Assembly (NCBI GenBank): GCA_913057795.1
Contig: CAJXOD010000013.1
Location: forward strand, 1-34,713
Length of the DNA: 34,713 nucleotides
From: an uncultured Aquiluna sp.
GTDB taxonomy: Bacteria > Actinomycetota > Actinomycetes > Actinomycetales > Microbacteriaceae
Direction of reading: 5' to 3'
The notes beneath the pieces were generated by a model, which was not told the origin of the DNA, did not search any database, and saw only the letters and a program-made list of their open reading frames with translations. Positions 31,320 to 34,095 of the stretch are shown here, piece after piece. The translations under genes and the position numbers were made by a program. Each line of letters starts with the position of its first letter. Position 1 is the stretch's first letter.

Positions 31320-31409
31320 TGGCGGTGACGGTGGGATTTGAACCCACGGTGGACTTTCACCCACACAACTTTTCGAGAGTTGCACCTTCGGCCGCTCGGA
31401 CACGTCACC
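31320..31409 (-). tRNA. tRNA-Ser (anticodon CGA)
   Basis: The 90-nt gene has a 7-bp acceptor (GGTGACG / CGTCACC), an anticodon stem CAACT / AGTTG with loop CTCGAAA (anticodon CGA at 31373-31375, reading UCG), a class II variable arm (GTGG...CCAC) and a T arm GTGGG-TTCAAAT-CCCAC. The discriminator is G, as required by SerRS, and CCA is encoded. It follows tadA, a common actinobacterial order. Confidence 0.97.
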
Positions 31410-31489: not shown

Positions 31490-31933
31490 CTAGCGCCTGG
31501 CTTCGAAAAATTCTTTTAGGACTTTGGCGCACTCATTAGCCAACACCTCGGGAATCACCTCAACCGGGTTGCCAAGCCTGCTGTCTCTTAGAACATCGTA
31601 GATAGAGCCCGCCGCCCCAACGCGCTCATCCCATGCCCCGAAGACAACCCTTGGAATCCTGGCTGCAACGATTGCTCCGGCACACATCACGCACGGCTCA
31701 AGCGTGACGATGAGCGTGCAGTCATCTAGTCTCCAAGAGTTCAATTTCTTTGCGGCAGTTCGAATGACCTCAATCTCAGCGTGCGAGGTTGGGTCCTTTA
31801 GCTGCTCTCTCAGATTGTGAGCGATTGCGACGACGTTGCGATTGCCATCTATTAGCACAGCACCGACCGGGACTTCGTCGCCGGAAAGCTTGGCTTGTTC
31901 AAGTGCAAGGTGCATCAAAGCTTCAAACTCCAT
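31490..31933 (-). CDS. tadA: tRNA-specific adenosine deaminase
   Basis: TadA converts A34 to inosine in tRNA-Arg(ACG), enabling wobble decoding. Counting from ATG 31933 (147 residues), His51 and Glu53 (HAE), with Cys81 and Cys84 (PCVMC), form the zinc-dependent deaminase site; VPVGAVLI and [13 protein letters not shown] are conserved. The frame is open to 31984, but the extra 17 residues are not family-like and would run into upp. A TAGGCT box ends 7 bases before the chosen ATG, with no ribosome-binding site, which supports a leaderless start here. Confidence 0.95.
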
Positions 31934-31948
31934 AGTCTTGAGCCTATG
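31931..31948. promoter_or_regulatory. Interlocked divergent leaderless promoters of tadA and upp
   Basis: The 18-bp sequence CATAGTCTTGAGCCTATG has a start codon at each end: tadA ATG on minus (31933-31931) and upp ATG on plus (31946-31948). Plus carries TAGTCT (31933-31938) exactly 7 bases before the upp ATG. Minus carries TAGGCT (31946-31941) exactly 7 bases before the tadA ATG. The first base of each -10 box pairs with the first base of the opposite start codon. Neither gene has a ribosome-binding site. Confidence 0.65.
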
Positions 31949-32593
31949 CGACTTCATGTAGCGAATCACCCATTGATTACTCACAAGCTCACCGTGCTAA
32001 GAGACAAGCGCACGCCGAGCCCTCAGTTCCGACAACTGGTCGAAGAACTCGTGACCCTCCTTGCCTACGAGGCCACTAGAGACATCCGAGTTCAAGAGGT
32101 TGAGATTGAGACTCCGGTGCAAAAAACCACGGGGTTGAAAATTTCCAACCCCAAGCCACTCATCGTGCCTGTTCTTCGAGCGGGCCTCGGCATGCTCGAG
32201 GGAATGGTTAAGTTACTGCCTAGTGCTGAGGTTGGCTTTCTTGGGATCAAGCGCAACGAAGAAACTCTCGAGCCTTATACCTATGCCAATCGTCTGCCAG
32301 ATGACCTACAAAATCGCCAGGTTTTCATAATCGACCCGATGCTTGCCACCGGGGGCACACTAAATGACTCCATCGATTACATCTTTGAGCGCGGCGCAGT
32401 CTCCGCAACCTGCGTCTGTCTCCTCGGTGCACCCGAAGGTGTTGAAAACGTGAGAGCACACCTACTAGCCAATTGGCCTGATCGTGAAGTTGACGTGGTT
32501 CTTGGAGCTCTCGATGAAAAACTAGATGAGCGCGGATATATCGTGCCCGGCCTAGGAGATGCCGGAGACCGGCTCTACGGAATAGCTCAGTAG
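31946..32593 (+). CDS. upp: Uracil phosphoribosyltransferase
   Basis: The enzyme makes UMP from uracil and PRPP in pyrimidine salvage. The 215 residues start [20 protein letters not shown]. They include [14 protein letters not shown], the PRPP-binding loop [11 protein letters not shown] (128-138) and the uracil-binding C-terminus [16 protein letters not shown] start at ATG 31946; a frame open to 31895 would overlap tadA and adds non-family residues. It is predicted to be leaderless. The stop lies 2 bases from the stop of the convergent sigma-factor gene. Confidence 0.97.
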
Positions 32594-32595
32594 TT

Positions 32596-34059
32596 TTAGC
32601 GAGAAACCGTCATTGAGGCTTTGACCGGGTTTCCTTTGGAATCCAGGCTCAACTTCACGGTTGAAATAGCATTGGCTAGCGGAGACTGGTCGAACACGTT
32701 CCCATTCTCATCAACAACCCAGAAATCGCTGGCCCTCAGGACAATTTCGTGGCCGTCAGCGATTGGGGTGGTCTCCACGGAGGAGATTTCAGCGACTGCG
32801 TAGTAACGCTTTCCGTCAACCCACATTTGATAAACAGAATTGAAAACTGTCCTGTTGGCAAAATCCATGTCTAAAAACGCAGAGATGCCGGTGCCACCGA
32901 AGATCTCGATTGAGCTCCCGCGGAAACCTGCCGATAGAAAGTCAGAAGAAGCGTAAGAGTTTGTGTAGTAACCAGCCTGAGGAACATTCGTGGCCAAAAT
33001 TGTTGCCACAGACGCCTCGTCAAAAATTGGTTCCGGTCCACTTGCCACAACCGTGGTTGCCTCTGCGGCATTTGGCGCTCGGGCTGGACCTTGAGTTTGC
33101 GATTCGCTCACCGTCTGAGTGGAGGCAACGTCGATTGCATCCGTTGACTCAACCGGAAGCTCAGCAGGCGCAGCGCTCGCGGCTGGTACCTCAACGGCTT
33201 CTGTCGCACTTACCTCACCCGCTGAACCCAGGGATAAGGCCTCAGCGCTTTCAGACGGTGCGCTCGCAACCTGATTGGTTGTGGTCTGGTTTATGTTCGG
33301 CAACACTCCAAGTGAAACTGCCATTACCAACAGAAACGCTCCTGCAGCAGCAACGTACTTACCAGACTCGGCCGCCGCTTTCCTAGCGGCAACCGACAAA
33401 ATTTGCCCGGCTGACATGCCAGCGGTTTCTACCTCGCCAATGAGGGCCTTCTTGAATGCCGATCGCGCTCGGAATAGCAGTTGCCTGGTCGCGTTTTCGC
33501 TCAGCCCGAGTTGTTCTGCAACGGCGTCAGTTGATTTTTCCTCGTAAATCGACGCGATCAATACTTCGCGCTGTCGCGGCTGAAGCTTTGCAAGAGCCAT
33601 CGAAACAATGGCTGCATCGTCCGCTCGCTCCATCTCCAAGGACATCTCCGGGCTGTTTGCAGCTATTTCCGGCTGATCATCTAATGGCGCAATGCTCACG
33701 CGAGAATTAATGCGGATGACATCCAGACTCAAAAGCCTGGTTTTCCACTTCAAAAACTTTAAGACCCCAACTTCGGAATCTAATTCTGGCAGTGTTGTCA
33801 TCAAGTACAAGAATGCGTCCTGGACTACCTCTTCAACCTGGGATGGGTTTACTAGGTAGCGACGAGCGTGCCTCTCAAGGTGAGGGCGAAACCTGACATA
33901 AATACTGGCGAAATCGGCGGCAGACCAATCTTTCAAAACCGCTGGAGTCAAGGAGTCGGCTAGGTGCTCTCTATATTCGGGTGCACCAAATTCCTCGTCC
34001 GACTCTTTATCAAGCAGTCGTTCGAGTGGATCCTCTAGAAAATCCTCAGAATTAGCCAT
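32596..34059 (-). CDS. ECF-type sigma factor fused to a membrane anchor and extracytoplasmic domain
   Basis: Numbered from ATG 34059 (487 residues). Residues 49-119 resemble sigma region 2 (FASIYVRFRPHLERHARRYL, VEEVVQDAFLYL). Residues 150-206 are sigma region 4 with a helix-turn-helix (LQPRQREVLIASIYEEKSTD, VAEQLGLSENATRQLLFRAR). One hydrophobic helix spans about 235-254. A Ser/Ala/Glu/Thr linker (256-344) and a beta-rich C-terminal domain (345-487) of unknown family follow. The likely topology has sigma in the cytoplasm and the C-terminus outside. I suggest a one-protein sigma/anti-sigma sensor. TATATT ends 7 bases before the ATG; a GTG start at 34077 is less likely. Confidence 0.85.
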   Translation of the reverse strand: MANSEDFLEDPLERLLDKESDEEFGAPEYREHLADSLTPAVLKDWSAADFASIYVRFRPHLERHARRYLVNPSQVEEVVQDAFLYLMTTLPELDSEVGVLKFLKWKTRLLSLDVIRINSRVSIAPLDDQPEIAANSPEMSLEMERADDAAIVSMALAKLQPRQREVLIASIYEEKSTDAVAEQLGLSENATRQLLFRARSAFKKALIGEVETAGMSAGQILSVAARKAAAESGKYVAAAGAFLLVMAVSLGVLPNINQTTTNQVASAPSESAEALSLGSAGEVSATEAVEVPAASAAPAELPVESTDAIDVASTQTVSESQTQGPARAPNAAEATTVVASGPEPIFDEASVATILATNVPQAGYYTNSYASSDFLSAGFRGSSIEIFGGTGISAFLDMDFANRTVFNSVYQMWVDGKRYYAVAEISSVETTPIADGHEIVLRASDFWVVDENGNVFDQSPLANAISTVKLSLDSKGNPVKASMTVSR

Positions 34060-34066
34060 CAGTTTC

Positions 34067-34095
34067 AATATACGCACTATGTCAAGAGTTGTTAC
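34067..34095 (-). promoter_or_regulatory. Promoter of the membrane sigma-factor gene (leaderless)
   Basis: On the minus strand GTAACA (34090-34095) and TATATT (34067-34072) have a 17-base spacer. The -10 ends exactly 7 bases before ATG 34059, so transcription should start at the A of the ATG. Confidence 0.55.

Follow-up and report, generated by a model that had tools for sequence, protein, structure and literature searches.

A predicted bidirectional promoter with two leaderless starts in the 18 bp at the tadA-upp junction of Aquiluna

How can two divergent genes be transcribed and translated when only 12 bases lie between their start codons? The question is posed by tadA and upp in the 34,713-nt stretch of DNA analyzed here (the window), where the tadA ATG occupies 31933-31931 on the minus strand, the upp ATG 31946-31948 on the plus strand, and 31934-31945 are all that separates them (Table 1). 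The nearest named relatives of this upp are those of Aquiluna. A first-pass annotation had reported the 12-base separation and a TANNNT box 7 bases before each ATG, and direct reading of both strands of CATAGTCTTGAGCCTATG confirms the two observations, the spacing being exactly 7 bases in either direction. The boxes do not overlap. Each strand of this short stretch carries a -10 element, as expected of a bidirectional promoter. The annotation had also placed the TA of each box within the opposite start codon; this is true of the T, but the A is intergenic. Its statement that neither gene can have a normal leader was too strong, as the opposite gene could accommodate one (upstream of 31933, the frame of tadA is open as far as a GTG at 31984).

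Table 1. Features at the tadA-upp junction, in window coordinates
Feature	Position	Strand	Basis
18-bp interlocked element CATAGTCTTGAGCCTATG	31931..31948		Two start codons and two -10 boxes; read directly
upp, uracil phosphoribosyltransferase, 215 aa	31946..32593	+	ORF; Pfam PF14681, E 9e-66
Predicted upp -10 box TAGTCT	31933..31938	+	7 bases before ATG; TANNNT kept across relatives
Predicted upp transcription start (A of ATG)	31946	+	Inferred from box spacing
tadA, tRNA adenosine deaminase type protein, 147 aa	31490..31933	-	ORF; Pfam deaminase families
Predicted tadA -10 box TAGGCT	31941..31946	-	7 bases before ATG; conserved in genus
Predicted tadA transcription start (A of ATG), 13 bp from upp start	31933	-	Inferred from box spacing

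The arrangement is rare by chance. The pattern CATANNNTNNANNNTATG matches once in the window, against a mean of 0.02 in shuffled sequences (at least one match in 2 of 100 shuffles), and the tadA-upp junction is its single match in the whole 1.33-Mb draft genome. A simple scan for sigma-70 promoters, based on -35 and -10 hexamers, yielded no match between 31400 and 32700.

Taking all the evidence below together, we think it likely that the 18 bp act as a bidirectional housekeeping promoter from which both mRNAs are leaderless in Aquiluna. RNA polymerase on the plus-strand TAGTCT would begin transcription of upp with the A of the start codon, RNA polymerase on the minus-strand TAGGCT would do the same for tadA, and each leaderless mRNA would be translated from its 5'-terminal AUG. 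Two promoters would fit into 18 bp because each TA has a double use: it opens one -10 box and, read on the complementary strand, supplies positions -1 and +1 of the start facing that box. Judging from this geometry, polymerase bound in one direction should exclude polymerase bound in the other.

Several elements of this arrangement have precedents. Bacterial bidirectional promoters are defined by a distance of 7-25 bp between the two transcription starts, with 18 bp the commonest spacing (PMC10268837), and have near-symmetric -10 sequences on the two strands (Warman et al. 2021, as described in PMC10268837 and PMC12825309). The tadA-upp junction shares the symmetry, and its predicted starts, 13 bp apart, are within that range. 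It differs from the commonest arrangement of 18 bp with coinciding positions -7 and -11 (optional in the definition), which is absent here; instead, the boxes are separate, the TA of each is base-paired to the -1/+1 of the other promoter, and each predicted start coincides with a start codon. Basal transcription at five tested bidirectional promoters of Escherichia coli was too low for competition, which arose only when one side was strongly activated (PMC12825309).

The second precedent concerns leaderless genes, whose TANNNT box in Actinobacteria lies some 12 bp ahead of the start codon (Zheng 2011, PMC3160421; Cortes 2013, PMC3898074). Box sequence and spacing at tadA-upp are the same, but the relevant passages of these two papers contain no case of two such promoters interlocked in 18 bp. 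The passages on Mycobacterium tuberculosis do include closely juxtaposed divergent promoters and a divergent leaderless pair, prpD (Rv1130)/Rv1129c (PMC3898074), which resembles tadA-upp in having leaderless starts on both sides and differs in that no shared 17-18 bp element is described for it there. Among the literature matches listed, none describes a 12-13 bp arrangement in which the two promoters have TA in common and each transcription start falls on a start codon.

For upp, the case for a leaderless start is broad. TANNNT with a gap of 6 or 7 precedes the gene in 80 of 80 named relatives (79 before the start of one, L044, was re-anchored by hand) and in 89 of 90 genomes representing 81 other Microbacteriaceae genera. 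A conserved TANNNT 6-7 bases before the start codon is what marks leaderless actinobacterial genes, and the best reading of these counts is that upp is leaderless almost throughout the family.

For tadA, we turn to the genus sample of 22 genomes, 16 of which have upp, 10 of them with tadA head-to-head. Alignment of the junction across close relatives, which the first-pass annotation had suggested as a check on its proposal, did not show the loss of the motif that it had named as a refutation: CATANNNTNNANNNTATG is present at the junction in all 10 genomes that keep the pair, and in each of them the tadA ATG is 12 bases from upp. The tadA-side box is found in none of the six genus genomes that have upp but lack tadA within 200 bp. 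The pattern occurs elsewhere in an eleventh genome of the genus (G008), and its reversed control in 1 of 22. All six box bases are identical in the 10 genomes (A31941, T31945, and A31946 on the tadA side), two of them being start-codon bases as well, and pairwise identity at the remaining 8 spacer positions is 83%, compared with 39% at 31 fourfold sites of upp; we conclude that the spacer is under selection. The mark of leaderless genes given above for upp, a conserved TANNNT 6-7 bases before the start, is found for tadA in 10 of 10 genus pairs, and also in L035 and L067 from the wider comparison.

In 381 kb of a congener with 288 first ATGs, TANNNT precedes 30 with a gap of 6 and 12 with a gap of 7 (about 1.5 and 1.3 expected), and 0-4 at each of the other offsets. 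Leaderless genes are probably common in the genus, with a signature that matches the published actinobacterial one. Candidate boxes (gap 5-9) stand before possible starts on both sides in 12 of 60 divergent pairs of the congener; these pairs are 12 to 158 bases apart, and tadA-upp is the tightest.

Beyond the genus, the element depends on the position of tadA. An opposite-strand box before upp, defined as A at -5, T at -1, and A at +1, is present in 73 of the 90 genomes from other genera of the family; in two sets of leaderless-like genes at large, the same second box is found at 2 of 50 and at 2 of 12, and it is found in 0 of 40 genomes outside the family (tadA being adjacent in 2 of those 40). 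We sorted 106 genomes (family plus genus) by the state of tadA, using a script with simple rules for Shine-Dalgarno (SD) words and start choice. The opposite box accompanies 56 of 64 SD-led tadA genes and 8 of 9 that are adjacent with an unclear start, but only 3 of 8 that have a box of their own elsewhere and 1 of 10 junctions where tadA is not adjacent (SD-led vs. the last two classes combined, p 3e-7 in a Fisher test uncorrected for kinship). The interlocked class, which requires the box by definition, has it in 15 of 15. The second box therefore goes with a head-to-head tadA that lacks another box of its own, the exceptions being the 8 SD-led junctions without it and the 3 own-box genes with it. 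On the best single-gene tree (family plus genus), 9 disjoint pairs follow this association, 0-1 go against it, and 3-4 show no difference; restriction to well-supported branches leaves 5 independent pairs only, for which a sign test fell short of significance (median p 0.5).

These distributions suggest where the doubly leaderless state fits in. In most of the family, upp would be leaderless and tadA would have an SD leader, whereas Aquiluna and some other genera would have the start codon of tadA directly on the transcription start, which is predicted 12 or 13 bp from the upp start on the opposite strand. The tadA ATG is 11-12 bases from upp in Aquiluna and in L035, L067, L233, L241, L287, L296, and L302 (the last with unequal spacers, 6 and 7), and in all of these tadA would be leaderless as well. 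The chosen starts of the 64 SD-led tadA genes are 24-156 bases from upp, and none of these junctions has an SD-preceded start candidate at 13-23 bases, a zero that fits the model, although the letters of the promoter in themselves account for part of it. Parsimony on the single-gene tree requires 8 changes of the interlocked state, so that repeated gain or loss of this state is probable. The simplest account would be that the bidirectional promoter is old in Microbacteriaceae. The two interlocked leaderless promoters proposed at the outset are accordingly well supported by comparison, but as what looks like a special state of a family-wide two-box element.

One feature of the family alignment complicates this interpretation. 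The middle three bases of the tadA-side box are also conserved (e.g., in 31, 37, and 35 of 43 genomes of the gap-6 group), and the stretch may consequently serve upp, for example as a discriminator. It could then be that only upp is leaderless, that tadA is expressed from a promoter within upp on an mRNA with a leader, its translation beginning at 31933 or at an in-frame start upstream, and that the opposite box is a by-product of the conserved discriminator. The open tadA frame reaching GTG 31984 would permit this. However, the in-frame ATG located 12 bases into upp is replaced by GTG in L024 and is missing in L025, while L020-L025 and L035 all have the ATG at 12 bp, and the opposite box tracks the position of tadA. 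We consider this alternative improbable.

A tadA mRNA beginning at 31933 might instead be translated from Met7 (31915), giving an 18-nt leader. The genus sequences that were read contain Met7, and an SD-like four-base word falls within the 16 bases scanned before it in L020-L023, but in L020-L022 that word is GGAG, about 12 nt from the ATG, there is none in L024, L025, or L035, and all 10 genomes with the pair retain the ATG at 31933; we regard a Met7 start as very unlikely.

The bidirectional promoter does not appear to be confined to tadA and upp. A 12-bp form of the pattern occurs in 186 of 398 family genomes (control 60) and an 11-bp form in 169 of 398 (control 26), counts that include the tadA-upp sites and controls that were counted by hand. 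The two forms differ by one central base, so that a single indel shifts both spacers together, and each occurs at three gene pairs, tadA-upp and two other conserved head-to-head pairs at which the forms are found in different genera. In several genera, a Peptidase_M24 (methionine aminopeptidase-like) gene is head-to-head with an ORF of 57-65 aa across an interlocked 11- or 12-bp junction (L125-L131, L153-L156, and L186); Pfam was run on sampled members, and a scan of the small ORF from one member returned no family. In two genera, genes for a chorismate-binding enzyme and a class IV aminotransferase, which we take to be pabB and pabC, face each other across a junction of the same two forms (L116-L124, L174-L176, and L179; Pfam again on sampled members). 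A further aminotransferase pair (L113, L114) was left out as doubtful because of a long extra N-terminus.

These pairs also bear on the near-palindrome at the junction. That it serves a dimeric regulator of tadA and upp as operator, as the almost perfect palindrome CATAGGCT-TG-AGCCTATG of congeners G005, G007, and G015 might suggest, is the least probable of the alternatives, since the symmetry follows from two facing boxes and the other gene pairs with the same geometry have the box and start-codon bases in common but not the palindrome letters. Nor did we find anything that would support the regulatory link between tRNA inosine modification and uracil salvage that the first-pass annotation had drawn from mutual exclusion of RNA polymerase; the same kind of module lies between other gene pairs.

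Recurrence is best judged from recognizable gene pairs, as ORF length proved unspecific. Reading frames of at least 50 codons extend both ways from 19 of 23 newly read 12-bp loci and 9 of 30 11-bp loci, but plain CAT-N-ATG control sites also pass this test: 400 kb of family DNA gave 13 of 45 (11 bp) and 6 of 13 (12 bp), and the congener gave 6 of 94 and 2 of 28, respectively; two-sided ORF length was consequently abandoned as proof of a true divergent pair. Nor was there class-wide enrichment of CATANNNTN{0,3}ANNNTATG (72 of 197 genomes vs. 66 of 197 for the reversed, hand-counted control), and we therefore make no claim beyond Microbacteriaceae. Abutting boxes without a shared TA (CATTANNNTN{0,1}ANNNTAATG) were found in 0 of 199 family genomes (control 1), although this pattern has two more fixed bases, so that few chance matches are expected and their absence is weak evidence.

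Given these results, we see about an even chance that the bidirectional promoters of Microbacteriaceae include a distinct class, the two starts lying 12-13 bp from each other and the TA of each -10 box forming the opposite -1/+1 TA, in which a central one-base change shifts both spacers and which, where both starts are ATG, becomes a complete divergent expression unit of 17-18 bp, a state reached at several unrelated housekeeping gene pairs. If so, 17-18 bp with two promoters and two start codons would be near the smallest possible unit of this kind, and leaderless translation would be what allows promoters and coding starts to be packed together. The family would offer a natural series for one gene, tadA, from an SD leader to no leader, and the element, in which single bases have several duties, would be a clean place for testing polymerase competition.

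Some features of the surrounding sequence may be recorded here. Within upp, on the tadA strand, there is a terminator-like hairpin with a T-run (window 32153-32130, minus strand), which is not conserved in the genus. A second contig ends in a repeat of the final 32 codons of upp, identical at the protein level (100%; G000:C23:21283-21378, L018), perhaps owing to assembly overlap or a duplicated contig end. A tRNA-Ser gene (anticodon CGA; window 31320-31409, minus strand) is located about 80 bases downstream of tadA. On the other side, a 493-aa ORF (window 32596-34077, minus strand) looks, from its translation judged by eye, like a sigma factor of the extracytoplasmic-function type, with what appears to be a C-terminal membrane segment and tail.
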